DNA of 20,896 nucleotides from a virus. Under the pieces are notes generated by a model. That model had not been told where the DNA came from. It did no database searches and saw only the letters and a program-made list of their open reading frames with translations. The translations under genes and the position numbers were made by a program. The stretch covers positions 1 through 20,896 of IMG/VR virus record IMGVR_UViG_3300008117_001337. One strand, written 5' to 3'. How positions within the stretch are numbered: position 1 is the stretch's first letter; each line of letters opens with the position of its first letter. Of the stretch, positions 1 to 19,314 are shown piece after piece.

Positions 1-21
1 TAAACTCTTTAAGGATTAATT

Positions 22-1755
22 ATGGCAATTTATAGAGGACCAGGTGGACCAGGTGATGCTACAACAGATGCTACCAGTGAAGGTATAGTAGCGTCTAATG
101 CGGCTGCTGCTGCCCTTGTAAGTCAAACTGCTGCTGCGGCTAGTGCTACTGCCGCTGCTTCAAGTGCTTCTACCGCATCATCAAGTGCAAGTTCAGCATC
201 TAGCTCTGCATCTAGTGCAACAAGTTCAGCTTCTACAGCTACTACACAAGCAACCAATGCAGCTACAAGTGCATCTAACGCTGCTACATCTGCTTCCAAT
301 GCAGCAACTAGCGATACAAATGCTGCTGCTTCAGCCTCACTAGCAAATGATTGGGCTACTAAAACAGCAAGTCCAGTAGCTGGTGGGGAATACTCAGCTA
401 AATATCATGCACAAGCAGCTTCTACTTCTGCTTCTAATGCCTCTACATCTGCATCTAATGCAAGTACTTCCGCTTCTAACGCATCCTCTTCAGCATCAAG
501 TGCTTCTACAAGTGCAACGAATGCTGCAAATAGTGCTGCCGCTGCAGCTGCTTCATTTGATAGCTTTGATGACATTTACTTAGGTGCTAAAGCTAGTGCT
601 CCTACTACAGATAACGATGGAAACCCATTACAAACAGGTTCTATCTATTGGAATACTACAACTAATTCATTATGGATCAGAGATGGTTCAACATGGAATC
701 CTGCTGCATTCTCAGCATCAGGTTCAGTAATTTCATTCAATACAAGAACTGGGGCTGTTACTTTACAATCAAGTGATGTCTCAGGTGCTTTAGGATTTAC
801 TCCAGGACAAGGTACTGTAACATCAGTTGCAGCTACAGTTCCTACAGGATTAACCGTTACAGGTAGTCCAGTGACTTCAGCAGGTACATTAGCTTTCAGT
901 TACACTGCTGGTTATGAAATTCCAACAACAACAAAACAATCACAATGGGATACAGCATACGGTTGGGGCAACCATGCTTCAGCAGGGTATCTAACATCTG
1001 CTACAGCTGCAACTACTTATCAACCATTAGATGGTGATTTAACAGCTATTGCTGCTTTATCAGGTACAAGTGGTTTCCTTAAGAAAACAGCAGCTAACAC
1101 TTACACATTAGACACTAATACATATCTAACTACAGAAACAGACCCTGTTTACACAGCATCATCTTGGTATTCAACTACTAATAATGCTTCAAATTGGGAC
1201 ACTGCTTATAGCTGGGGTAATCATGCAAGTGCTGGTTATTTAACTTCAGCAGCCATTGGTTCAACTGTACAAGGTTATGATGCTAACACAGCTAAACTAA
1301 ATGTTGCTCAAACATTCACAGCTAAACAAACATTCACAGGTTCATCATCTGTTATTGCATCTAAATTCGTAAACGCTTTAGAAGGTGTAACTGTATCAGC
1401 AACAGCAGCTACAGGTACTATTAACTATGATGTAACAACTCAATCAGTATTATACTATACAACAAATGCAAGTGCAAACTGGACTGTAAACTTTAGAGGT
1501 TCATCAGGTACATCTTTAGATACAGCTATGGCTACTGGTGAAGCAATCACAGTAGTATTCTTAGTATCACAAGGTGCTACAGCATATTATAATAATGCAG
1601 TTACTATTGACGGTACATCTGTTACACCTAAATATCAAGGTGGTACAGCATGGACAAGTGGTAATGCTTCAGGTATAGATGCTTACTCATACACTATCGT
1701 TAAAACAGGTTCAGCTACATTTACAGTATTCGTATCTCAAACACAGTTTAAATAG
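22..1755 (+). CDS. Tail fibre-like protein, Ala/Ser/Thr-rich N-terminus
   Basis: 577 residues, probably a trimeric tail fibre or appendage that helps attach the virion. The N-terminus has a short Gly-Pro stretch (residues 5-12), then about 170 residues almost entirely Ala, Ser, Thr and Asn in short repeats, as seen in extended fibre shafts. The middle holds two copies of a 16-residue motif (residues 309-324 and 392-407, W-D-T-A-Y then W-G-N-H-A-S-A-G-Y) that I know from other phage tail fibres. The C-terminus, from about residue 450, looks like a compact beta-rich tip. The Shine-Dalgarno AAGGA lies at 11-15, six bases before the ATG. No catalytic motif is visible. It stands directly before a second adhesin gene, which supports a role in host recognition. 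Fibre identity is fairly sure; the receptor is unknown. Confidence 0.8.
   Translation: MAIYRGPGGPGDATTDATSEGIVASNAAAAALVSQTAAAASATAAASSASTASSSASSASSSASSATSSASTATTQATNAATSASNAATSASNAATSDTNAAASASLANDWATKTASPVAGGEYSAKYHAQAASTSASNASTSASNASTSASNASSSASSASTSATNAANSAAAAAASFDSFDDIYLGAKASAPTTDNDGNPLQTGSIYWNTTTNSLWIRDGSTWNPAAFSASGSVISFNTRTGAVTLQSSDVSGALGFTPGQGTVTSVAATVPTGLTVTGSPVTSAGTLAFSYTAGYEIPTTTKQSQWDTAYGWGNHASAGYLTSATAATTYQPLDGDLTAIAALSGTSGFLKKTAANTYTLDTNTYLTTETDPVYTASSWYSTTNNASNWDTAYSWGNHASAGYLTSAAIGSTVQGYDANTAKLNVAQTFTAKQTFTGSSSVIASKFVNALEGVTVSATAATGTINYDVTTQSVLYYTTNASANWTVNFRGSSGTSLDTAMATGEAITVVFLVSQGATAYYNNAVTIDGTSVTPKYQGGTAWTSGNASGIDAYSYTIVKTGSATFTVFVSQTQFK
79..570 (+). repeat. Low-complexity Ala/Ser/Thr coding repeat
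   Basis: Within the tail fibre gene, short degenerate units coding for S-A-S, N-A-A and T-S-A recur with changing codons. The DNA is therefore not a perfect tandem repeat although the protein is very repetitive. A glycine-free linker including a W-A-T-K segment interrupts it near 345-405. This is the likely fibre shaft. Confidence 0.7.
946..1242 (+). repeat. Two copies of a WGNH fibre motif
   Basis: Two 48-base units, 946-993 and 1195-1242, encode nearly the same 16 residues (WDTAYGWGNHASAGYL and WDTAYSWGNHASAGYL). Codon choice differs between them, so they are old duplicates kept at the protein level. They lie in the tail fibre protein and probably mark repeated structural units. Confidence 0.75.
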
Positions 1756-1765
1756 GAATTAGTTA

Positions 1766-2689
1766 ATGCCACTATTATCTAGACTAGCCGTACAAGCAGC
1801 AAAAGCTTATGGTATGCTATCATCCTCAGATAAAAACAAAGTAACAGCATCTTATCTTGTTGTTGCTGGTGGAGGCGGAGGAGGAGGTCGTAGAGGAGGT
1901 GGTGGTGGTGCAGGTGGTTATCAAACATCTACATTTATTTTATCTACTCTTAATACTTATGCTATTTCTGTAGGAGCAGGAGGTAATGGAGGAGATGGTT
2001 CACCAAGTGCAGCTAGTGTTGGCTCTAACTCCGTAATTTCAGGTACTGGATTAACTACTATTACTTCAAATGGAGGTGGTGGTGGAGGCGGTGGTGGAGA
2101 TATAGCACCTTCTAGTGGTGGTTCAGGAGGTGGTGGTGGTCGTGGGGCATTTTCTACTGGAGCTTCTGGAACTACAGGACAAGGAAATGCAGGAGGAAAT
2201 GGTGACGGAAGTGCTGGAACAGGTGGTGGCGGTGGTGCTGGTGCTGTAGGAGGTAATGGAACAACAGCAACATCGGGTAATGGTGGTAATGGCTCTGCAT
2301 CTTCTATATCAGGCTCTAGTGTAACTTATGCTGGTGGAGGCGGAGGAGGCGGTGCAGCTTCAACACCAATTTTAGGTTCAGCAGGAAATGGTGGAACAGG
2401 CGGTGGAGGTAATGGTTCTGCTAGTGGAAATGGTTCTAATGGAACTGCTAATTTGGGTGGAGGTGGAGGCGGTGGAGGTTATAATGCACCTACAGGATAT
2501 ACAGGCGGTTCAGGTGGTTCAGGCATAGTCATCATATCGTATGCGTCAGCAACCCCTAAATTCGTAGGTGGTACTCTTACTACTTCAGGTGGTAACCAAA
2601 TACACACATTCACATCTTCAGGCACATTAAGCCCTCTTACACCTGTAACAGCTAGTTATTTAGTCGTAAAATGGAACATCTGGAAGTAA
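1766..2689 (+). CDS. Glycine-rich adhesin, N-terminal part (frame-broken gene)
   Basis: 307 residues. A short N-terminal segment (residues 1-25) is followed by a glycine-rich domain (26 to about 290). It begins VTASYLVV, runs through long Gly stretches with GTGLTTITS at 93-101, and closes with a beta segment rich in I-V-I-I-S-Y. A second VTASYLVV starts at residue 294, but the frame then reads only six more residues to a stop. The rest of the second glycine-rich domain continues in another frame from 2670, so this is the upstream half of one much larger adhesin. Shine-Dalgarno AGGA lies at 1754-1757. Glycine-rich domains of this kind are common in virion surface proteins of aquatic phages. 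If translated alone it would lack the LamG and SPRY modules and may be non-functional. Confidence 0.75.
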   Translation: MPLLSRLAVQAAKAYGMLSSSDKNKVTASYLVVAGGGGGGGRRGGGGGAGGYQTSTFILSTLNTYAISVGAGGNGGDGSPSAASVGSNSVISGTGLTTITSNGGGGGGGGGDIAPSSGGSGGGGGRGAFSTGASGTTGQGNAGGNGDGSAGTGGGGGAGAVGGNGTTATSGNGGNGSASSISGSSVTYAGGGGGGGAASTPILGSAGNGGTGGGGNGSASGNGSNGTANLGGGGGGGGYNAPTGYTGGSGGSGIVIISYASATPKFVGGTLTTSGGNQIHTFTSSGTLSPLTPVTASYLVVKWNIWK

Positions 2690-3237
2690 TGGTTCTAATG
2701 GTTCAGACTCATCTTTAAATGGAACAGGATTAACTACAATTACATCAACTGGAGGTGGTAGAGGAGGTAATTTTTCCAATGCCAATACAGGATTTAATAA
2801 CGGAGCTAATGGTGGTTCTGGTGGTGGTGGTGGTAGTTCTGATACAGGATTTACTGCTGGTACTGGAGGTAATGGCACTTCAGGTCAAGGAAATGCAGGA
2901 GCAGCTGGAAGAAGTTTTAGCACTACAGGAGCATCAGGTGGCGGTGGTGGAGCTGGAGGAGCTGGAGCACAAGGAACTAATGGAGGAGCTGGAGGTGTTG
3001 GTGGTGTAGGTGTTGCTTCATCTATTAGTGGAACTTCTACATTCTATGCAGGTGGTGGTGCTGGAGGCGGAACAACATCAGCTTCTGGTGGTAATGGCGG
3101 TGGAGGAAATAGTAATGGTGCTAGTACTATTGGCTCATCTGGTACTGCTAATACAGGTGGAGGTGGTGGAGCTGGTGGAAATACAACAGGCTCTAACGGT
3201 GCAGCAGGTGGTTCAGGTATTGTTATCATCTCATACG
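1841..3237 (+). repeat. Tandem pair of glycine-rich domains
   Basis: Two glycine-rich domains lie in tandem across the frame break. Both have VTASYLVV (starting at 1841 and 2645), GTGLTTITS, long GGn runs, a G-I-V-I-I-S-Y segment and a closing G-G-N-x-I-H-T-F-T-S strand. The DNA of shared parts is diverged, so this is an ancient duplication, not a recent one. The second copy lacks about 40 residues that the first has between VTASYLVV and GTGLTTITS. Confidence 0.75.
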
Positions 3238-5630
3238 CTGGCTCACAAGCATTTAACGGTGGTCTAGTCACATCATCAGGTGGTAATACTATCCACACAT
3301 TTACTTCTACAGGTGCTTTAACACCATTAACAAATAACCTAAATAACTCTTTAAGGTTTAGAGGAAGTGCAAGTGCTTATCTAAATAGAACACCTACCTT
3401 AACAGGTAACAGACAAACATTTACTTATAGTTTTTGGACTAAATTAGGTGGAGTAATATCAGCAGGTGGCGACTTTATTTCATCTAATAATGCTGCTGGC
3501 GGTGGTGATGCAATAGCACTTCAAAGTTCTAGTCGTATAGCAATTGCAGGAAGCGGAACTAATCTTTTAGTTACAACTCAATTATTAAGAGACCCTTCAG
3601 CTTGGTATCATATTGTTGTTGCTGTGGATACAACTCAAGCAACTTCAGCAAATAGAATTAAGTTATATATTAATGGAAACCAAGTAACTGCTTTTAATAC
3701 AGCAAGCTATCCAGCACAAAACTATAATTTTACTTATTGGAATAGTAGTTCTTATGCTCAACTCATAGGTGGAGGATATTCATATCTTGACGGATACATG
3801 ACTGACATTAACTTCATTGACGGTCAAGCACTAGAACCCTATTACTTTGGCAACAATGACGCTAATGGTGTATGGAAACCTATCCTATATAAAGGCACAT
3901 ACGGCACTAACGGTTTCTACCTAACATTTGGTAACACAACATCCACTACAACATTAGGCTACGATAGTTCAGGTAACGGTAATAACTGGACTTGTAACAA
4001 CATTAGCTTAACAGCAGGTGTCACTTATGATGCTATGACTGATGTCCCTACTAATACAAGTGCGACTACGGCTAATTATGCTACTTTAAATCCTATTTTA
4101 CAAAACGGATGGTGGGCTGCTGTTAATAGAGGAACTATTCAAGATGGCAATTTAACTTTTGCTACAGGTGCAGGAGTTTCTGCATTTAGTAATTTTGATT
4201 TAGTAGGTAATAGTGGTAAGTGGTATTATGAAATGACTTGTAGTGCTACTGATACTGCCAATGCAATTGTAATTGCTGCTCAATCTCGTTCTACTTTTGA
4301 AGTGGGTTATTATCAAAACGGAAATAGACAAATTAATAGTGCAACTCCTACTGCTTATGGAGCATCATGGACAAGTGGAGATGTTATTGGTGTAGCTATT
4401 GATGTTCCTAATAACAATATTACATTTTATAAAAACAATACCAGTCAAGGTGTAATTAATAACGCATTTCCAACAGGACAACCTGTTTATGTAGGTGCTT
4501 ATTACAATACTTCATCAGGTTCTTATGCATTTAACTTTGGACAACGACCATTTGCATACACACCTCCTACAGGCTATGTAGCACTAAACACATATAACCT
4601 ACCTACTCCTACTATATTACAGGGTAATAAGTATATGGATGCTAACCTATGGTCAGGTAATAGTTCAGCACAAACAGTAGTAAACCAAGCACAGTTTAAA
4701 CCTGACTTTGTTTGGGTTAAGTCAAGAACAAATACACAATGGAATAACTTAACAGACTCTGTTCGTGGTGTAACTAAATTATTATATTCAAATGCTACAA
4801 ACGCAGAAGCAACAAATTCAACTGCATTAACAGCATTTAATAGCAATGGTTTTTCAGTAGGTGATGACTCAGGTGGTAATGGTGTAAATACTAGTGGTCA
4901 AAACTATGTAGGTTGGCAATGGCAAGCTGGTGCTGGAACAACCAGCACAAATACCAGCGGTTCAATATCATCGACTGTATCTGTAAACACAACTGCTGGG
5001 TTTAGTATTGTGACTTATACAGGTGTTGGTTCTAGTCCAAAAACTGTAGGTCATGGTTTAGGTGTAGCTCCTAAAATGATAATTCTAAAAAGTAGAGGAG
5101 CTGCAGTTAATTGGTATGTATGGCATACATCTTTAGGCGCAACTCAAGTTATTGAAGGTTTAAATACAACAGGCGCAGCAAGTACACAACCAACATTTAA
5201 TAGCACACTTCCAACATCATCTGTTATTTCTTTAGGCAATAACGACTCTAACAATAGTGGTTCTACTTATGTATTATATGTATGGGCAGAAATAGCAGGG
5301 TTTAGTAAATTTGGTAGCTATGTCGGAAATACAAGTGCTGATGGACCATTTGTATATTGTGGTTTTAGACCTAAATATCTATTAGTAAAAAATACAACAA
5401 GCTATGACTGGCATGTATTTGATGCAGCAAGAAATACATATAACTTTACTAATTCAAGTTTAAAACCTGATACAAGTGGAGCTGAATATACTAACAATGA
5501 TGTTTCTTATGACTTTTTATCTAATGGGTTTAAAGTAAGAGGAACAGACTTGGCACTTAACGCAAATGGTAATACAATGATATTTGCAGCATTTGCAGAA
5601 CATCCATTTAAAAACAGTAACGCAAGATAA
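2670..5630 (+). CDS. Glycine-rich/LamG/SPRY adhesin, C-terminal part (frame-broken gene)
   Basis: An open frame of 986 codons that continues the gene at 1766. It has no ATG, GTG or TTG near its beginning; the first such codon in frame is a GTG at 3624, inside a domain. Residues are numbered from 2670. The second glycine-rich domain covers 1-220. A LamG/concanavalin-like lectin fold covers about 223-447 (F-R-G-S-A-S-A-Y-L, A-W-Y-H-I-V-V-A-V-D, I-K-L-Y-I-N-G). An SPRY/B30.2-like domain covers about 470-633 (G-K-W-Y-Y-E-M, I-T-F-Y-K-N). The C-terminal module, about 635-986, ends F-A-E-H-P-F-K-N-S-N-A-R and resembles the DUF7483 family of phage and aquatic proteins. Such modules bind surface sugars or proteins, so this is a likely receptor-binding appendage. 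Whether the halves are joined in life cannot be decided here. Confidence 0.75.
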   Translation, partial: NGTSGSNGSNGSDSSLNGTGLTTITSTGGGRGGNFSNANTGFNNGANGGSGGGGGSSDTGFTAGTGGNGTSGQGNAGAAGRSFSTTGASGGGGGAGGAGAQGTNGGAGGVGGVGVASSISGTSTFYAGGGAGGGTTSASGGNGGGGNSNGASTIGSSGTANTGGGGGAGGNTTGSNGAAGGSGIVIISYAGSQAFNGGLVTSSGGNTIHTFTSTGALTPLTNNLNNSLRFRGSASAYLNRTPTLTGNRQTFTYSFWTKLGGVISAGGDFISSNNAAGGGDAIALQSSSRIAIAGSGTNLLVTTQLLRDPSAWYHIVVAVDTTQATSANRIKLYINGNQVTAFNTASYPAQNYNFTYWNSSSYAQLIGGGYSYLDGYMTDINFIDGQALEPYYFGNNDANGVWKPILYKGTYGTNGFYLTFGNTTSTTTLGYDSSGNGNNWTCNNISLTAGVTYDAMTDVPTNTSATTANYATLNPILQNGWWAAVNRGTIQDGNLTFATGAGVSAFSNFDLVGNSGKWYYEMTCSATDTANAIVIAAQSRSTFEVGYYQNGNRQINSATPTAYGASWTSGDVIGVAIDVPNNNITFYKNNTSQGVINNAFPTGQPVYVGAYYNTSSGSYAFNFGQRPFAYTPPTGYVALNTYNLPTPTILQGNKYMDANLWSGNSSAQTVVNQAQFKPDFVWVKSRTNTQWNNLTDSVRGVTKLLYSNATNAEATNSTALTAFNSNGFSVGDDSGGNGVNTSGQNYVGWQWQAGAGTTSTNTSGSISSTVSVNTTAGFSIVTYTGVGSSPKTVGHGLGVAPKMIILKSRGAAVNWYVWHTSLGATQVIEGLNTTGAASTQPTFNSTLPTSSVISLGNNDSNNSGSTYVLYVWAEIAGFSKFGSYVGNTSADGPFVYCGFRPKYLLVKNTTSYDWHVFDAARNTYNFTNSSLKPDTSGAEYTNNDVSYDFLSNGFKVRGTDLALNANGNTMIFAAFAEHPFKNSNAR

Positions 5631-5641
5631 TAGGAGAACAC

Positions 5642-6007
5642 ATGGCACATTTCGCACAACTTAACGAAGAAAACATAGTAACACAAGTCATTGTGGTTGC
5701 TAACCAAGACACAGCAGACCAAGACGGTGTAGAGAACGAAGCAATTGGTATTGCGTTCTGCACATCCTTACTTGGTGGTAATTGGAAACAAACATCTTAC
5801 AACGGTAAAATTCGTAAGAACTATGCAGGTATTGGATACAAGTATGATGCAACACTAGATGCATTCATACCCCCACAACCATTTGCTTCATGGACTTTAG
5901 ATGAAATAACAGCACAATGGAAAGCTCCAGTTGACTATCCAACTGATGGTGAAAGATACACTTGGAATGAAAAAACTTTAACTTGGGACGCAATCGTAGA
6001 GGAATAA
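5642..6007 (+). CDS. Conserved phage protein of unknown function
   Basis: 121 residues, soluble, no signal peptide or membrane segment. It opens M-A-H-F-A-Q-L-N with N-I-V-T-Q-V-I-V-V, has a G-N-W-K-Q-T-S-Y-N segment in the middle and a Trp-rich C-terminal third (P-F-A-S-W, A-Q-W-K, T-W-N, L-T-W-D). I recognise this type of small protein next to tail-fibre genes in cyanophages and other aquatic phages, where it is usually unnamed. A virion or fibre-associated role is possible from position only. Shine-Dalgarno AGGAG lies at 5632-5636, six bases before the ATG. Confidence 0.7.
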   Translation: MAHFAQLNEENIVTQVIVVANQDTADQDGVENEAIGIAFCTSLLGGNWKQTSYNGKIRKNYAGIGYKYDATLDAFIPPQPFASWTLDEITAQWKAPVDYPTDGERYTWNEKTLTWDAIVEE

Positions 6008-6008
6008 A

Positions 6009-6128
6009 ATGACTCCTGATCAACAAAAAGAAGCCATTAAAGAGGCATTAGAAGAGTGGTTAGATAAACAATTTACCAAGTTTGGTAGATGGTCTCTTCG
6101 TAGTATTGGGGCTATAGCTCTTTACTGA
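6009..6128 (+). CDS. Micro-ORF, possibly truncated small membrane protein
   Basis: 39 residues. The first 25 form a charged amphipathic helix (K-E-A-I-K-E-A-L-E-E-W-L-D-K), followed by G-R-W-S-L-R and a short hydrophobic stretch (S-I-G-A-I-A-L-Y) cut by TGA. The shape fits the N-terminal half of small single-pass phage proteins that I recall beside lysis genes, but the expected membrane helix is missing here. The stop of the preceding gene is one base away. The frame of the next gene stays open upstream from 6118 (L-F-T-E-A-S-I-R-A-I-Y-E), so a frameshift or deletion at 6117-6126 is possible. A genuine short protein cannot be excluded. Confidence 0.5.
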   Translation: MTPDQQKEAIKEALEEWLDKQFTKFGRWSLRSIGAIALY

Positions 6129-6153
6129 GGCATCTATTAGAGCAATCTATGAG

Positions 6154-6453
6154 ATGCTAACAAAAATATACCCATTTAATACATGGAAGCTTCCTTCATC
6201 TCGAAAGATTAAGTTTGTAGTTGACCATAAAATAGACCTACTAGGTCAGATGCACATGAAGCCATTTAAAATGGTTATTGGTACAAAACACCAAGAGCAT
6301 TTTATAACAGTTGTAACTACTATTGCACATGAGATGGTTCATCTAAAACTTTATTTAGATAAAGACCCTTCTTATAATGTACATAGAAAGAATTTTAGAG
6401 AGAAAACAGCAATAATAGGTGAACTATTTGGTTTTGATAGGAAGGCACTATGA
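6154..6453 (+). CDS. SprT-like zinc metallopeptidase-type protein
   Basis: 99 residues. The motif A-H-E-M-V-H-L at 58-64 supplies H59, E60 and H63 of an HExxH zinc site. A later H-R-K-N-F at 77-81 fits the third ligand region of SprT-like proteins. The protein is short for a protease and lacks the usual C-terminal zinc ribbon, so it may be a minimal catalytic domain. Related small HExxH proteins occur near lysis genes in podoviruses; the substrate is unknown. The ATG at 6154 has only a weak upstream purine run, and the frame remains open back to 6118. It overlaps the next gene by ATGA at 6450-6453, so the two are probably translated together. Confidence 0.65.
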   Translation: MLTKIYPFNTWKLPSSRKIKFVVDHKIDLLGQMHMKPFKMVIGTKHQEHFITVVTTIAHEMVHLKLYLDKDPSYNVHRKNFREKTAIIGELFGFDRKAL

Positions 6454-6734
6454 AACATTTACTATATTTACTTTTAATATTAGCAACATTACTTTACATC
6501 CATAAAGCTGAAGCAGAAGAGTATATGGTTATGCAATACAATGAGAATGTTCGTATTGTTCTCTCTAAAGAGAAGTGTCCTACAAAAGGATTTAGAGCTG
6601 TAGCTCAAAGAATAGATAAACAAATATTAAGAGCTTGTTGGTCTCCTAACGGAAACCTAATTAATATTCAATGGGAAGGTGGAGACTTTAGTGAGTTTCC
6701 AGTAGATAGATTTTATCCAGCAGAGGTTAAATAA
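6450..6734 (+). CDS. Secreted small protein with two cysteines
   Basis: 94 residues. A clear signal peptide occupies residues 1-22 (K-H, then leucine-rich core, then A-E-A before a likely cleavage site). The mature part is about 72 residues with C43 and C63, which could form a disulfide in the periplasm, and a Trp-rich C-terminal half (R-A-C-W, I-Q-W-E-G-G-D). I recall similar exported small proteins in lysis regions of aquatic phages, without an assigned function. Position just before the holin and endolysin suggests a role in lysis or in the periplasm, for example spanin-like, but there is no lipobox or coiled coil to support a spanin. It is linked to both neighbours by overlaps (ATGA before, TAATG after). 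Confidence 0.65.
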   Translation: MKHLLYLLLILATLLYIHKAEAEEYMVMQYNENVRIVLSKEKCPTKGFRAVAQRIDKQILRACWSPNGNLINIQWEGGDFSEFPVDRFYPAEVK

Positions 6735-7099
6735 TGGATCCAGTAACAATATTAGCAGCATTAGGACCTTTAGCAGTAGATTTAGGTAAGTCACTTATTA
6801 ATAGATTCGTAGCTCCTGATCAGTTTAAACCAGCTACCATAGAACAATATGCTCAGATGAAGGGTATAGATTTAGAGTTCTTTAAGGTTATGAATGAAGC
6901 AGGTGGAGGTAATCCATCTTATCCATGGGTAGAAGCTATTGTAAGACTTATGAGACCAGCGATTGGTCTATTAGTGTTAGCTACATGGGCTACTATGCAC
7001 TTACAAGGTATTGCAACACCTGAGGTAGATAACTTTGCTAGTGCTGTAGGATTCTATTTATTCGGTGAAAGAAGTTTATTTTATATTAAGAAGAAATGA
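6734..7099 (+). CDS. Holin, GTA_holin_3TM-like
   Basis: 121 residues. It has a hydrophobic N-terminus (I-L-A-A-L-G-P-L-A-V-D-L-G), a central helical segment, and a strong hydrophobic stretch at about 75-91 (R-P-A-I-G-L-L-V-L-A-T-W). A second follows at about 99-115 ending F-Y-L-F-G-E-R-S. This matches the three-helix holin family first described for gene-transfer-agent release (PF11351 type). It would form holes in the inner membrane and time lysis. The start overlaps the previous stop as TAATG, and the end overlaps the endolysin start as ATGA, so holin and endolysin are coupled. Assignment rests on hydrophobic pattern, size and context. Confidence 0.75.
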   Translation: MDPVTILAALGPLAVDLGKSLINRFVAPDQFKPATIEQYAQMKGIDLEFFKVMNEAGGGNPSYPWVEAIVRLMRPAIGLLVLATWATMHLQGIATPEVDNFASAVGFYLFGERSLFYIKKK

Positions 7100-7530
7100 A
7101 GTTAAGTCCTAATTTTAGTTTAGAAGAACTTACTTTTAGTCAAGTAGCATCAAGAAGAGGGTTAAATAATACTCCTTCAGATAAAGTAAAGGATAACTTA
7201 GAAAGACTTGCATTCTTTTTAGAACAAATTCGTAAACTATTTAATAAACCACTCCTGATTAGTTCAGGATATAGATCGAGGGAAGTCAATGAAGCAGTGG
7301 GTGGAAGTAAAACATCACAACATTGTGAGGGATGTGCAGCTGACTTTAATGTCAAGGGAATGTCTCCTAATGCTGTGGTCAGAGCCATTGTCGATGCTAA
7401 TATCCCTTACGATCAGGTTATATTAGAATTTGATAGTTGGGTACATATTTCTATTCCAACTGTTAAAGGAGCAACACCAAGGAAACAAGCTTTAATTATA
7501 GATAACAAAGGGAAGAGAGAGTTTAAGTGA
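7096..7530 (+). CDS. Endolysin, M15A-type peptidase
   Basis: 144 residues, the full size of a single-domain M15A (D-Ala-D-Ala carboxypeptidase-like) peptidase. The fold markers are in order: S-S-G-Y-R-S at 56-61, S-Q-H-C-E-G-C-A-A-D at 74-83 with zinc ligands H76 and D83, and W-V-H-I-S at 115-119 with the third ligand H117. The acidic catalytic residue is probably E111 or D113. There is no signal peptide, so release depends on the holin encoded just upstream. It would cut the peptide part of peptidoglycan. The stop overlaps a GTG start of the next gene (GTGA at 7527-7530). Confidence 0.9.
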   Translation: MKLSPNFSLEELTFSQVASRRGLNNTPSDKVKDNLERLAFFLEQIRKLFNKPLLISSGYRSREVNEAVGGSKTSQHCEGCAADFNVKGMSPNAVVRAIVDANIPYDQVILEFDSWVHISIPTVKGATPRKQALIIDNKGKREFK

Positions 7531-7703
7531 AGAAACCTACAACCAAGCTAGGGAAACAAACTAAAATTAGTAAAGTGATGCGTGAGTTTAAAGCAGGTAC
7601 ATTAAACACTGGCTCTAAGAAAGGTCCTGTTGTTAAATCTAAAAAACAAGCTATTGCAATTGCATTATCACAAGCAGGTATGTCTAAAAAGAAAGGTAAA
7701 TAA
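7527..7703 (+). CDS. Lysine-rich small protein, DUF6496-like
   Basis: 58 residues, 17 of them Lys or Arg (16 Lys). The core K-V-M-R-E-F-K-A-G-T-L-N-T-G-S followed by K-Q-A-I-A-I-A-L-S matches the DUF6496 family as I remember it. The tail is K-K-K-G-K. The start is GTG overlapping the endolysin stop, which suggests coupled translation. The DUF6496 role is unknown; the strong positive charge allows DNA or RNA binding. It is first of four lysine-rich micro-genes. Confidence 0.7.
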   Translation: MKKPTTKLGKQTKISKVMREFKAGTLNTGSKKGPVVKSKKQAIAIALSQAGMSKKKGK

Positions 7704-7705
7704 TT

Positions 7706-7837
7706 ATGCCAATGGTCGGAATGAAAAAATTTAGTTATACATCTAAGGGTAAAAAAGAAGCTAAAGAGTACGCAAAGAAAACTGGTAAGAAAATGGTTTC
7801 TAAACCTAAAAAGACTGGTGCAAAGCGTGGCTACTAA
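7706..7837 (+). CDS. Lysine-rich micro-protein
   Basis: 43 residues with 14 Lys and 1 Arg, so 35% basic. The start has M-P-M-V-G-M-K-K-F-S-Y, then alternating Lys/Ala/Glu helix-like sequence and a basic tail ending R-G-Y. It begins two bases after the previous stop, and no strong Shine-Dalgarno is visible because the upstream sequence is the end of the previous gene (A-A-A-G-G-T-A-A-A). I have seen close relatives beside DUF6496 genes in aquatic phages, unnamed. A nucleic-acid-binding role is only a guess from charge. Confidence 0.6.
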   Translation: MPMVGMKKFSYTSKGKKEAKEYAKKTGKKMVSKPKKTGAKRGY

Positions 7838-7979
7838 ACAAGGACTCTATGCTAACATCCATGCTAAGCGTAAAAGAATAGCAGCAGGATCAGGTGAGAA
7901 GATGCGTAAGGTGGGGTCTAAAGGGGCTCCCACTGCTAAAGCATTTAAACAAAGTGCTAAAACAGCGAGGAAGAAATGA
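7827..7979 (+). CDS. Lysine/arginine-rich micro-protein
   Basis: 50 residues with 11 Lys and 4 Arg (30% basic). It starts at GTG inside the previous gene (11-base overlap). The sequence contains Y-A-N-I-H-A-K-R-K-R and G-S-K-G-A-P-T-A-K-A-F-K, a pattern I recall from small conserved proteins of aquatic phages and some bacteria. Pro and Gly in the middle break it into two helical halves. The end overlaps the next start as ATGA. Function unknown. Confidence 0.65.
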   Translation: MATKQGLYANIHAKRKRIAAGSGEKMRKVGSKGAPTAKAFKQSAKTARKK

Positions 7980-8245
7980 TTAAAAAAGGCAAAGAAACTT
8001 TTAGTGGGTTTAACAAACCAAAGAGAACTCCAAGCCATCCTACTAAAAGCCATGCAGTGTTAGCTAAAGTAGGAGATGTAGAAAAGTTAATTAGATTTGG
8101 TCAGCAAGGTGTAAGTGGTGCAGGATCTGCCCCTAAAACAGCTTCTGAGAAAGCAAGACAAAAGTCTTTTAAAGCAAGGCACGCTAAGAACATAGCAAAA
8201 GGTAAGATGTCAGCAGCATATTGGGCTGACAAAGTAAAATGGTAA
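7976..8245 (+). CDS. Conserved basic phage protein of unknown function
   Basis: 89 residues, 21 Lys or Arg (24%). The C-terminal half K-A-R-H-A-K-N-I-A-K-G-K-M-S-A-A-Y-W-A-D ends in a Trp, and the N-terminal half has S-H-A-V-L-A-K and L-I-R-F-G-Q-Q-G. It resembles a widespread conserved family of short phage and bacterial proteins (possibly DUF6321; I am not certain of the name). The structured central R-F-G-Q-Q-G strand suggests a folded domain rather than a disordered tail. It is last of the four basic genes and is followed by a promoter, so it ends the upstream operon. Confidence 0.65.
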   Translation: MIKKGKETFSGFNKPKRTPSHPTKSHAVLAKVGDVEKLIRFGQQGVSGAGSAPKTASEKARQKSFKARHAKNIAKGKMSAAYWADKVKW

Positions 8246-8253
8246 TAAATTAG

Positions 8254-8282
8254 TTGACAAATAGCCATTCTTATGGTATAAT
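8254..8282 (+). promoter_or_regulatory. Consensus sigma70 promoter with extended -10
   Basis: TTGACA at 8254-8259, a 17-base spacer, and TATAAT at 8277-8282, preceded by TG at 8274-8275 (extended -10). This is a perfect match to the bacterial housekeeping consensus. It lies in the 63-base gap between the basic-protein genes and tail tubular A. Transcription should start near 8289, giving a leader of about 20 bases before the ATG at 8309. It would drive the tail and internal virion operon with host RNA polymerase. Confidence 0.9.
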
Positions 8283-8308
8283 TGTTGTATATACTGGGAA
8301 AATAACAC

Positions 8309-8950
8309 ATGACTTATTTAGAAATTGTCAATAAGGTTTTAAAAAGATTAAGGGAACCTACAGTGGCTTCTGTGAGTGAAAACTCATATAGCTCATTGAT
8401 TGGTGACTTAGTTAATGTCGCTAAGCGAGAAATTGAAGATGCTTGGAATTGGTCAACTTTAAGAACTACTCTTACAGCTACCACTGCTCCTGATCTCTTC
8501 AACTATGTGCTTCGTGGTGCTGGAACTCGTTTTAGAGTTTTAGAGATTATTAATGACACTGATAATGTGTTCTTATATCCTAGAGATAGTAAATGGTTTG
8601 AAAGAAGCCTATTAATGTCTCCTGTACAAAAAGGAAGCCCATTATACTACAATTTTAACGGTGTTACTACTTATGGTGATACTCAAGTGGATGTATTCCC
8701 TGTACCTGATGGTGTTTATACATTACGCTTTAATGTGGTGATGCCACAAGATGATTTAACTTTAGATACTGAAGTAGTACAAATACCTTACACTCTTCTT
8801 ATTGAAGGTACTCTTGCAAGAGCAATTGCTGAGAGAGGTGAGGATGGTGGAAACCAAGATCAAGAAATGCGTTACAGAAATATGTTAGCAGATTTAATTG
8901 CAATTGAAGCTGGTACTCGTCCTGAAGAAACTACTTGGTATCCTCAATAA
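8309..8950 (+). CDS. Tail tubular protein A-like (head-tail adaptor)
   Basis: 213 residues, close to T7 gp11. The N-terminal helix pair (I-V-N-K-V-L-K-R-L-R-E, then V-A-K-R-E-I-E-D-A-W-N-W-S-T-L-R) is the hallmark of this family, followed by a beta-rich region and a C-terminal helical part (E-G-T-L-A-R-A-I-A-E-R-G-E-D-G-G) ending T-T-W-Y-P-Q. It would form the ring linking portal and tail nozzle. It is the first gene after the promoter at 8254-8282. The Shine-Dalgarno is weak (GGGA near 8296-8299). The stop overlaps the tail tubular B start as TAATG, matching the fixed A-then-B order of podoviruses. Confidence 0.85.
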   Translation: MTYLEIVNKVLKRLREPTVASVSENSYSSLIGDLVNVAKREIEDAWNWSTLRTTLTATTAPDLFNYVLRGAGTRFRVLEIINDTDNVFLYPRDSKWFERSLLMSPVQKGSPLYYNFNGVTTYGDTQVDVFPVPDGVYTLRFNVVMPQDDLTLDTEVVQIPYTLLIEGTLARAIAERGEDGGNQDQEMRYRNMLADLIAIEAGTRPEETTWYPQ

Positions 8951-9996
8951 TGGCTGGAACATTAAAAACTACTTCTATAGCTGCACCTGGATTCATGGGT
9001 TTAAATACCCAAGACTCCTCTGTTACACTTGAGAGTGGTTATGCTTCTATTGCTACTAATTGTATCATTGACAAATATGGTAGATTAGGTGCTAGAAAAG
9101 GTTGGGATGCTGTTACTACAAACAATGGTACTCTTACTGATTCAGAAGCTATTGGTTCTATATTTGAATTTAAAGAGATAGATGGTACGATTAGTTATCT
9201 ATCTGCTGGTGGTGGTAAATTATTTTCAGGAACTGAAACTCTAACAGAGCACATTCCTAAAGCAGCTGACCAAACAACTAATGCCCCTATTACCCCTACA
9301 GATGATAGATGGCAATTTGCAGCGTTAGCTGAAGGTAGTAGTGCAACTGCTTCTTCTTATGGTTTTGCAGCACAGATTGGTAATCCATTATTAGTATGGA
9401 GAAAGACATCTCACTCAGGTCCTTACATCTTTCAAAGAGTAGGTGACTATGGTAGTAAGCCATCAGGTGTTTCTACATTTGACCCTGACTGTGTATTAGC
9501 AGCATTTGGTAGAATATGGGTAGCTAGAATGACTAGCCATAAACATACTCTTTATTATAGTAGATTATTAGATGGTGCAGCATTTACTGGCACTGGTTCA
9601 GGAATTATTGATATTAGTTCTGTTGTTGGTAATAACGATGAGATTACAGCACTAGCTTATCACAATAGTTATTTAGTTATATTCTGTAAGAATCACATTG
9701 TTATCTATCAAGGTGCTAATGATCCTTCTACAATGACTTTAGCTGATGTGGTGGTAGGTGTAGGATGTGTTGCTAGAGATTCTGTACAAAGCACAGGTAC
9801 CGACTTAATCTTCTTATCAAAGAGTGGTGTAAGAAGCTTTAACAGAACAGTGCAAGAAAATACAATGCCTCTTCGTGAACTCTCTTTAAATATTAGAGAT
9901 GACTTAGTAGGATACTTAGCAGTTCTCTATGGAATAATACAGCTGGTACAAACTATACAGCATTTTGTTCTACAGAGGATAGAGAATTATTTATAG
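8950..9996 (+). CDS. Tail tubular protein B-like, N-terminal part (frame-broken gene)
   Basis: 348 residues from ATG 8950; a TTG five codons upstream is in frame, but the TAATG overlap with the previous stop favours 8950. The sequence has the repeating beta features of the T7 gp12/nozzle family: G-G-L-N-T-type start (P-G-F-M-G-L-N-T-Q-D-S), D-K-Y-G-R-L-G-A-R-K-G-W, F-G-R-I-W-V-A-R, Y-H-N-S-Y-L-V-I-F, and S-K-S-G-V-R-S-F-N. After L-N-I-R-D-D-L-V at about 317-324 the frame loses family likeness and ends within 25 residues. The family's C-terminal part resumes in another frame (9903-10427). It would form the distal tail nozzle, so the break affects a normally essential gene. Confidence 0.8.
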   Translation: MAGTLKTTSIAAPGFMGLNTQDSSVTLESGYASIATNCIIDKYGRLGARKGWDAVTTNNGTLTDSEAIGSIFEFKEIDGTISYLSAGGGKLFSGTETLTEHIPKAADQTTNAPITPTDDRWQFAALAEGSSATASSYGFAAQIGNPLLVWRKTSHSGPYIFQRVGDYGSKPSGVSTFDPDCVLAAFGRIWVARMTSHKHTLYYSRLLDGAAFTGTGSGIIDISSVVGNNDEITALAYHNSYLVIFCKNHIVIYQGANDPSTMTLADVVVGVGCVARDSVQSTGTDLIFLSKSGVRSFNRTVQENTMPLRELSLNIRDDLVGYLAVLYGIIQLVQTIQHFVLQRIENYL

Positions 9997-10427
9997 GTCT
10001 TCCAGGTAAGATTGTTAAATACAATGGTTATTTAGATGGCACTACAACATATAATATGCAATATTATACATCTAGTTCCGACTTAGGAAGTGCTACAACG
10101 AATAAGATGCTTAAAAAAGCATCATTAGTAATTATAGGTAATGGTGATCAAGACTTTTCATTTAAATATGGATATGACTATACATTAAACTATACTACAC
10201 AACCTATTAATAGAAGTTTAGGTTCAGGAATATATAGTACTTTTGGTTCTACTTTTGAGTATGGTATTGCTAAATATTCTTCTGTAGGTATTGGTGTTAA
10301 TACAATTTATGTACCTTTAGGTGGATCAGGGAAAGTAATTCAATTTGGAGTTGAATCAGAAATTAATGATAATCCAGTGTCTATTCAAAAAATAGATGTT
10401 TATTTACAAACAGGGAAAATGATATAA
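9903..10427 (+). CDS. Tail tubular protein B-like, C-terminal part (frame-broken gene)
   Basis: Frame open from 9903 with no ATG, GTG or TTG until ATG 10056. Family-like sequence starts near 9930 (W-N-N-T-A-G-T-N-Y-T-A-F-C-S, R-E-L-F-I-G-L-P-G-K-I-V-K-Y-N-G-Y). It continues with L-K-K-A-S-L-V-I-I-G-N-G and V-Y-L-Q-T-G-K-M-I at the end, the usual C-terminus of this tail protein family. It therefore belongs with the gene at 8950, not a separate gene. Together they would give about 490 residues, and the stretch that normally links N-I-R-D to this Trp (about 50 residues as I recall the family) is not present. A -1 shift would connect them, but I see no slippery heptamer in the shared region 9903-9996. 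Confidence 0.7.
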   Translation, partial: LSRILSSSLWNNTAGTNYTAFCSTEDRELFIGLPGKIVKYNGYLDGTTTYNMQYYTSSSDLGSATTNKMLKKASLVIIGNGDQDFSFKYGYDYTLNYTTQPINRSLGSGIYSTFGSTFEYGIAKYSSVGIGVNTIYVPLGGSGKVIQFGVESEINDNPVSIQKIDVYLQTGKMI

Positions 10428-10966
10428 TGGCAAACTATACCAAGGCAACTAACTTTTTAGCAAAGGATTCACTAGCTTCAGGAGATCCAGCTAAAATTAT
10501 TAAAGGTTCTGAATTTGATGTAGAGTTTAATGCTTTACAAACAGCAGTCAATAGTAAAGCTAATATTCCTGCTGGTTGGTATCTATGTAATGGTGCAAAT
10601 GGTACTCCTGATTTAAGAAATAAATTTATTGTAGGTGCTGGCTCTACTTATGCAGTTGCAGCTACTGGAGGTAGTGCAGATGCTATTGTGGTATCTCATA
10701 CTCATACTGCTACAACAAGTTCAACCTCTCTTACAGGTGAGATTTCTAGCCAATATGCTAACGGTTCAAACTATGGTGGAACTACTGGTGTATTCTCACA
10801 AACTAATTACCAAGTAGATGGTGATGGTGGTGAAAGCCGTGCTGGTAGAACTATTTATTTTGATGGTACTCATAGTCATACAACAACTGTTAGCTCAACA
10901 GGTTCTAGCGGTACTAACGCTAATTTACCTCCATACTATGCTTTAGCATATATAATGAAAAGCTAA
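10427..10966 (+). CDS. Tail collar-type short fibre protein
   Basis: 179 residues. After a short N-terminal region (M-A-N-Y-T-K-A-T-N-F and G-S-E-F-D-V-E-F-N-A-L) comes a phage tail collar core: I-P-A-G-W-Y-L-C-N-G at 47-56, T-P-D-L-R-N-K-F-I-V-G-A-G at 60-72, then S-H-T-H-T and G-T-H-S-H-T, which are metal-binding His pairs seen in such fibres. The C-terminus is L-P-P-Y-Y-A-L-A-Y-I-M-K. It would be a short receptor-binding fibre at the tail. In the relatives I recall there is a longer linker between the N-terminal part and the I-P-A-G-W motif; here they touch. It is coupled to its neighbours by TAATG overlaps on both sides. Confidence 0.85.
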   Translation: MANYTKATNFLAKDSLASGDPAKIIKGSEFDVEFNALQTAVNSKANIPAGWYLCNGANGTPDLRNKFIVGAGSTYAVAATGGSADAIVVSHTHTATTSSTSLTGEISSQYANGSNYGGTTGVFSQTNYQVDGDGGESRAGRTIYFDGTHSHTTTVSSTGSSGTNANLPPYYALAYIMKS

Positions 10967-15982: not shown

Positions 15983-17920
15983 TTATGTAAGTTCACAACT
16001 TGATCCACTACAAGCCAAGTTATCTTTAGCTTCTGTATGGTCGTCAGTTTCAATTACTTTCGTTAAGTCTATCTCTTGAAGATGTTTAAACATTTCATCG
16101 AAGATTTCTTTAGTACAGTCTTCAAATGGAGCTTGTTGATAAGTGCCTCCATTATAAGGTAGTACAGAGATACCAGTATAGTTATAACGATTCTCCCACA
16201 TCCACTTACCACATTCTTCCCACTCATCATCTTTTAATGAAATGGTACAAGAAACATTGTGTTTATTATCACCTCTATCATGACCATAAGCTACCCACTC
16301 TAAGTTAAATTTCTTAACTCGTTCTAAGATTTCTTTATAGCTTTCAGTACGAAGGATAGAACCTTCAGGAGCTTTCTGAGGGAAACTCATAACAGCTTCT
16401 AAGTGTGGTTTCCATACACAGTCTTCAATTAAAGCAGGTACAGTTGAAGTCATATATCTGTATAATGGTTCATTCTTACCTACACGCATACGGCGAATAT
16501 AGTAATCATTATGCCAAGCATGAATACCACTACTGCTACCAAGTACCAAAGAAGTAGTGCCAGCAGGCTTAACAGTAGTAATTCTTGCAGACTCATTGAT
16601 GCCAATAATATTCGCAACTCGTTTATTTTCTTCTTTAGCCTCACCTGCAGCCTCCGCTAAGTTTAATTTAAGAACACCCCCTGAAGCAATACCTGTCATA
16701 GAAACACCAAGTAGTGCATCCTCTTCAGAAGTTTCTTTCCATACACTTCTTAGATAATGGAAGTCAGTGTAGCCAGCTTGTAATGTACCAATGAATGCTG
16801 CAGCCCTAACACGAGCATTAAGTGTGTCTTGAGTTGTTACATCTGATACATTAACTTCAACTAGATTACAATAGGAGTTAGGTCTTAAACTAATTTCAGC
16901 ACATGGATTAGTACCTACATCATAGTTATTAGTCCAAAATACTCCAGGTTCTCCTGCACCTGATTGTTCTACTCGTTTCCAAATGGAAGACCACTCTTCT
17001 TCTGTAATCTCTTCACGATTTAAAGCTACTGAATTATTAGCTCTACCTCGTTGTGGATTAAGTTCCCACCAGTCACCACTCTTAGCTGACATCATGTCCA
17101 TATCATCTTTATCGAATAAAGAGATTAGGGCAGCTCTACGAATACCACCTGAGAGTACTGCATCAGCAATATGACAGATCATATCATGTACTTCGATAGG
17201 TTCTAGCTTACGACCAACAGCATTGTTTAACACACTACGAAGCTTATCTAAACAGATGCGTAATGGGTCAGGACCAGGAGCCTTACCACCTGAAGTGATT
17301 AGTCTAGCACCTTTAGGTCTAATGTCTCTAAAGTCAAATACTGGATCAGATTTACCAAGTGTATAGGCTTTAATTAATACTTTAACAGCATCAGCCCAAC
17401 CCTCAATAGAATCTCCTACCAAGAATCGTCGTTGTTTAGCGGATGGACCAACGATAGTAGGGAGTCTATCTGTATGTCTGCGTTGTACGCTAAAGCCCAC
17501 ACCACTTCCCCCAAGTAAGTTAAACATGGTCTCGCTGAAAACGGCAGGATGATCGACAGGGGAATAAGCACAATTGAACATACGATTATTACTGAGTTCA
17601 ATAGGAGTGCCACCGAACTGTAAGCTACGCATAGAAGGCAATACTTGACGATTGTAAACATATTTGTAAACATCTTTAATTTCCTCTTTTAACTGTGGAT
17701 ACTTCTTCATGTGCATGACCATGTTACGACTTACTAACTCTTCCCAAGTTTCTCTGCGTTGGGTTTCAGGGACATACTTAGCATATTTATTAAATATGGT
17801 GATGTCACTTAATATCTTCTGACTTTTATCCATTATCTTCTTTCTTATAGCGTAGTTATATAAATTAATCGGAGGAAGTTGTTCAATAATCTTTTCTTGT
17901 AATTCAGTTAATGTTATCAT
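15983..17920 (-). CDS. nrdJ: Class II (B12-dependent) ribonucleotide reductase
   Basis: 645 residues, of the monomeric ribonucleoside-triphosphate reductase type known from Lactobacillus leichmannii (about 740 residues), so somewhat short. Key residues are in place: C117 in F-N-C-A-Y, N338-P-C340-A-E342 with C340 as the thiyl-radical cysteine, C351 eleven residues later as partner for C117, P-A-G-T-T-S near 450, and a C-terminal C637-x4-C642 pair that shuttles electrons. It uses adenosylcobalamin to turn ribonucleotides into deoxyribonucleotides, needing neither oxygen nor an iron subunit. The enzyme supplies dNTPs for phage replication. The start overlaps the DUF3310 gene as ATGA, so both are co-expressed. 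It is followed by the 54-base promoter gap. Confidence 0.93.
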   Translation of the reverse strand: MITLTELQEKIIEQLPPINLYNYAIRKKIMDKSQKILSDITIFNKYAKYVPETQRRETWEELVSRNMVMHMKKYPQLKEEIKDVYKYVYNRQVLPSMRSLQFGGTPIELSNNRMFNCAYSPVDHPAVFSETMFNLLGGSGVGFSVQRRHTDRLPTIVGPSAKQRRFLVGDSIEGWADAVKVLIKAYTLGKSDPVFDFRDIRPKGARLITSGGKAPGPDPLRICLDKLRSVLNNAVGRKLEPIEVHDMICHIADAVLSGGIRRAALISLFDKDDMDMMSAKSGDWWELNPQRGRANNSVALNREEITEEEWSSIWKRVEQSGAGEPGVFWTNNYDVGTNPCAEISLRPNSYCNLVEVNVSDVTTQDTLNARVRAAAFIGTLQAGYTDFHYLRSVWKETSEEDALLGVSMTGIASGGVLKLNLAEAAGEAKEENKRVANIIGINESARITTVKPAGTTSLVLGSSSGIHAWHNDYYIRRMRVGKNEPLYRYMTSTVPALIEDCVWKPHLEAVMSFPQKAPEGSILRTESYKEILERVKKFNLEWVAYGHDRGDNKHNVSCTISLKDDEWEECGKWMWENRYNYTGISVLPYNGGTYQQAPFEDCTKEIFDEMFKHLQEIDLTKVIETDDHTEAKDNLACSGSSCELT

Positions 17921-18859: not shown

Positions 18860-19088
18860 TAAACTGTTCTCCATTAGGTTTAGCTACACCATCTTTAAAT
18901 CGTTTCTCTACTTCACCTGTGCTTTTATTCAACTCATACTCATAATGGTCTCCTGTGTTACCATTCTGCGAGATCACATCAATTCTTGATTGCTTCTTAC
19001 CGAATATGCGTTCAAAGTTTTCTTCACCTTGTTTAGTAAAGAATCCTTTTGTTTGAATGCTGTCACCTGTTATATCATTCTTACTCAT
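18849..19088 (-). CDS. Unknown small acidic protein
   Basis: 79 residues, polar and charged with no membrane segment. Contains F-T-K-Q-G-E-E-N-F-E-R-I-F-G-K-K near 17-32 and a later strand-like G-D-H-Y-E-Y-E-L-N-K-S-T-G-E-V-E, suggesting a small mixed fold. No named family is recognised. It overlaps the neighbouring genes by 8 and 11 bases, so it belongs to the replication operon. Confidence 0.55.
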   Translation of the reverse strand: MSKNDITGDSIQTKGFFTKQGEENFERIFGKKQSRIDVISQNGNTGDHYEYELNKSTGEVEKRFKDGVAKPNGEQFNDE

Positions 19089-19314
19089 ATGATAATTCCC
19101 TTACTTTTTTAAACACTTCTCGTCTGTCGCTAAACTTATAAGAACCATCCAAATGTAAAAAGAAAGCAGTCCAACCATGATTGGCATGGAATGTTCCTGT
19201 CACTTCTTTTCCGTTAATAGTATCAAAATAAATCCAAGGATAGTTAGCCGCAAAAGTTACATCTATACCTATCTTTTTAAGCCTAGCCCTAAATTTTGAT
19301 AATCTATCAGTCAT
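19081..19314 (-). CDS. Conserved phage protein of unknown function
   Basis: 77 residues. The pattern R-L-S-K-F-R-A-R-L-K-K-I-G-I, then N-Y-P-W-I-Y-F-D, G-T-F-H-A-N-H-G-W-T-A-F-F and Y-K-F-S-D-R-R-E-V-F-K-K-V-R is one I recall from hypothetical proteins of many tailed phages, including T4-like ones. The aromatic centre and basic ends suggest a compact nucleic-acid-binding or regulatory fold, but that is inference. It overlaps both neighbours by a few bases. Confidence 0.6.
   Translation of the reverse strand: MTDRLSKFRARLKKIGIDVTFAANYPWIYFDTINGKEVTGTFHANHGWTAFFLHLDGSYKFSDRREVFKKVRELSYE

Follow-up and report, generated by a model that had tools for sequence, protein, structure and literature searches.

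The break in the reading frame of a glycine-rich gene in the window, by which we mean the whole stretch of 20,896 nucleotides that was analyzed, is best explained as an assembly gap that was closed up, a reading to which we assign a probability of roughly 0.95; judged from sequence comparisons, the real gene would be one continuous tail adhesin gene encoding about 1,327 amino acids. That the product is a tail adhesin is most likely because a tail-fiber gene precedes it, it has a SPRY domain, and tail and virion families are matched. Assembly would have halted at the edge of a linker common to many co-occurring phages, and two contig ends would have been set adjacent, presumably in a scaffold in which a run of unknown bases (Ns) separated them; loss of this N run during creation or storage of the record would have left 119 bases missing and the frame shifted. 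The mechanical step that we infer is scaffolding with subsequent loss of the N run, and it should be noted that an assembler that abutted contig ends without an N run would give the same picture.

The Break in the Adhesin Gene

The gene is present as two parts that meet at the junction.

1766..2668, plus strand: 5′ part of the adhesin gene, which contains the shared linker after the first Gly_rich_2 domain; open frame 1766-2689
2668..2669, no strand: junction with 119 bases missing; the same 119 bases are present in contigs L016 and L025; microhomology 0
2669..5630, plus strand: 3′ part of the adhesin gene, with the rest of the second Gly_rich_2 domain, SPRY, and DUF7483; open frame 2670-5630

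The 5′ part has a Pfam match to Gly_rich_2 (73.1 bits), and the 3′ part matches DUF7483 (388 bits), SPRY (38 bits), and Gly_rich_2 (30 bits). In the first glycine-rich domain, VTASYLVV starts at 1841 and GTGLTTITS at 2042, with 177 bases in between; in the second, VTASYLVV occupies 2645-2668 and GTGLTTITS starts at 2721, with 52 bases in between (2669-2720). The open frame from 1766 runs to 2689 and overlaps by 20 bases with the frame that opens at 2670 and ends at 5630. These spacings and the coincident change of frame had been pointed out in a preliminary description of the sequence and were confirmed on recomputation, which places the junction after base 2668.

Relatives of the downstream part were searched for and included two 100% matches, both of them IMG/VR contigs from other metagenomes: 3300032050_001719 (L005/L016) and 3300008114_000872 (L006/L025). 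L016 has zero substitutions relative to window positions 1-8358, the window being the same as L016 up to base 2668, and for L025 the count is two over 11 kb. These are the only two near-identical contigs that cover the site; in each, an identical stretch of 119 bases separates window positions 2668 and 2669, and the missing bases are thus present in independent assemblies of almost the same sequence. As 119 leaves a remainder of 2 on division by 3, the frame shifts. The preliminary description had put the loss at 125 bases and had proposed a comparison with the closest relatives; they do carry extra bases at the site, but the figure of 125 holds only as the difference between the two domains of the gene itself and not as the size of the missing piece, since the spacing in the second domain of the intact contigs is 171 bases, two codons less than the 177 of the first. 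In L016, which reaches the start of the gene, a single open frame encodes 1,327 amino acids with two Gly_rich_2 domains, SPRY, and DUF7483. In this intact protein, Gly_rich_2 (PF21722) is matched in two stretches with 117.3 bits in all, above the curated cut-off of 24.3, and DUF7483 (PF24299) is matched over the full profile with 387.3 bits, above the curated cut-off of 27. The exact pattern at the 2668/2669 junction is found in no other IMG/VR contig.

All linker-bearing contigs with enough downstream sequence encode homologues of one protein. Fifteen complete frames (L016 and fourteen more distant homologues) are unbroken, with stop-to-stop lengths of 1,322-1,366 codons. Four other complete frames are shorter (560 codons in L017, 1008 in L022, 851 in L029, and 972 in L045), which may reflect gaps, errors, or real truncation; a fifth shorter frame, that of L041, contains a gap described below.

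Further Gaps in the Window and in Other Contigs

At least five places in the window have 60-159 bases missing without any mark, and at least two of these break a reading frame. Apart from the junction in the adhesin gene, there are four clean gaps, each seen in comparison with two to four near-identical contigs (L016, L025, and L059-L062).

6121..6122, no strand: second gap, 60 bases missing; bases present in L016 and L025 and also in L067, a more distant contig; microhomology 0
9924..9925, no strand: third gap, 130 bases missing; bases present in L025 and L060; microhomology 0
10565..10566, no strand: fourth gap, an in-frame loss of 159 bases within gene 10427-10966; bases present in L025, L060, and L061; microhomology 2
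17879..17880, no strand: fifth gap, a loss of 124 bases at the beginning of the minus-strand ribonucleotide reductase gene; bases present in L059, L060, L061, and L062; microhomology 1

The gap at 9924 divides a 543-codon frame, found at 1518-3149 in L060, into 8935-9996 and 10056-10427. The gene models that adjoin the gaps (8935-9996, 10056-10427, 10427-10966, and the start of 15983-17920) are unreliable.

Such gaps are not peculiar to the window. Two stretches present in the window, of 146 and 36 bases, are absent from L025 itself, and clean gaps also occur in L055 (two) and L041 (one), contigs of other phages that are both from 3300008266. When L015 is aligned with L047, also of the 3300008xxx series, the BLAST blocks show two more candidate jumps of the same kind. 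Among near-identical pairs from other series, no clean gaps were found in about 48 kb. The related contig L063 is without 226 bases at window positions 19089-19314, approximately the extent of a small gene at 19081-19314, and this absence may be either a difference in gene content or another gap.

Ten junctions were examined, of which five belong to the window, two each to L025 and L055, and one to L041; their microhomology is 0-2 bases with a mean of 0.70, which is not above the 0.76 obtained for random cuts in the window. Recombination or slippage usually involves more junction homology than this, a de Bruijn misjoin results in an overlap of about k-mer length, and the collapse of a repeat leaves overlapping sequence where the two sides meet. 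The low junction homology, together with the additional gaps, therefore fits scaffold gaps from which unknown bases were dropped, as opposed to recombination or a switch. Across 51 loci with 501,586 bases in total, no N run is longer than 2. A search of the literature for the contig series and for how it was assembled found nothing usable.

Two other observations concern the content of the window. A short unlisted open frame at 7829-7979, of about 50 codons with a GTG start, encodes KRKRIAAGSGEKMRKVGSKGAPTAKAF; over about 145 bases, its DNA shows 70-83% identity to that of phages of Prochlorococcus, Synechococcus, Pelagibacter, and Roseobacter, and on these alignments the frame appears unusually conserved for a gene so small. 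Searches for RNA families and tRNAs in the window found none.

The Linker and the Ends of Contigs

The first of the two contig ends postulated at the junction coincides with the end of a segment that separates the two glycine-rich domains.

2513..2668, plus strand: 52-codon linker between the two glycine-rich domains, common to many phage contigs and the likely cause of the assembly break

A 30-mer within the linker occurs in 44 IMG/VR contigs, ten of which are from 3300008xxx assemblies, and has no exact match in bacterial and archaeal genomes. The mean DNA identity of the linker to the window in spanning contigs is 92%, and 80% at third positions, but it should be noted that the choice of contigs by an exact 30-mer inflates identity and that the third-position value is about 75% when the ten third positions of the 30-mer are left out. 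On both sides of the linker, identity falls mostly to 20-70% in an ungapped comparison. Contig ends cluster here: of 23 whole contigs, 6 have an end no more than 75 bases from the linker motif, compared with 0.45 expected (P about 1e-5). The end of L023 (3300008107) is exactly the base equivalent to 2668, and that of L044 is the exact edge of the 62-base gap of L041, which adjoins the same linker. The break at 2668 is likely to have arisen because a linker shared by co-occurring phages breaks assemblies. The linker, which is nearly unchanged even at third positions in dozens of phage contigs that have otherwise diverged, might also be a homology joint for phages that swap hypervariable glycine-rich receptor-binding domains, although we regard this role as doubtful.

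Alternative Explanations

The preliminary description had offered two explanations, a broken, switchable adhesin carried in the phage population and an assembly that collapsed over glycine repeats. A real deletion that alters host binding would be in keeping with the effect of the junction on a probable receptor-binding protein, in which one glycine-rich domain loses some of its sequence and the frame shifts. However, the junction is unique to this record in IMG/VR, whereas both near-identical contigs, which come from other samples, have the intact segment, and the two forms are thus not seen side by side in the population; the four similar gaps lie in unrelated genes, including that for ribonucleotide reductase; and the site, with a microhomology of 0, has no repeat, invertible segment, or tract that a switch could use. 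A real deletion or switch is therefore very unlikely. Deletion between short repeats was considered separately and rejected, there being no homology at the junction.

The suggestion of an assembly error is sustained, but probably not in the form of a collapse across glycine repeats. The region is indeed repetitive and encodes two similar domains, but the overlap that a collapse is expected to leave is absent, and the similar gaps sit in genes that are not repetitive, which makes this route extremely improbable. The 20-base overlap of the two frames (2670-2689) could also bring to mind a programmed frameshift or ribosomal bypass that joins them; because the near-identical contigs, with their additional 119 bases, read through in a single frame, no bypass is called for, and the probability of such a mechanism is negligible. 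A closed-up assembly gap remains the preferred explanation, under which the linker is mildly interesting and the frame break would not be a real feature of the phage. In this and similar records, a broken frame, a short protein, or an odd gene start calls for comparison with near-identical contigs before it is given a biological interpretation.

Comparison with Known Systems

The protein was compared with glycine-rich tail adhesins with SPRY and DUF7483 from marine and freshwater podoviruses. The SPRY protein of Methylophilales phage MEP301 shares the C-terminal SPRY and DUF7483 part, as do proteins of Pelagibacter and cyanobacterial phages, in each case with 33-45% identity, but the match to MEP301 and other isolates does not extend over the glycine-rich domains. 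The gp38-type adhesins of T-even-like phages presumably resemble it in having glycine-rich stretches in a probable receptor-binding protein, which we take as a lead only; no solved gp38 was matched, and only the SPRY part matches solved structures. With respect to the break itself, the relevant comparison is with scaffold gaps lost in metagenomic virus contigs. The present case differs in that no N run is left as a marker, but it resembles them in its clean losses of 36-159 bases at many places without junction homology, in the identity of the rest of the sequence, and in contig ends that fall on the same base in other assemblies.
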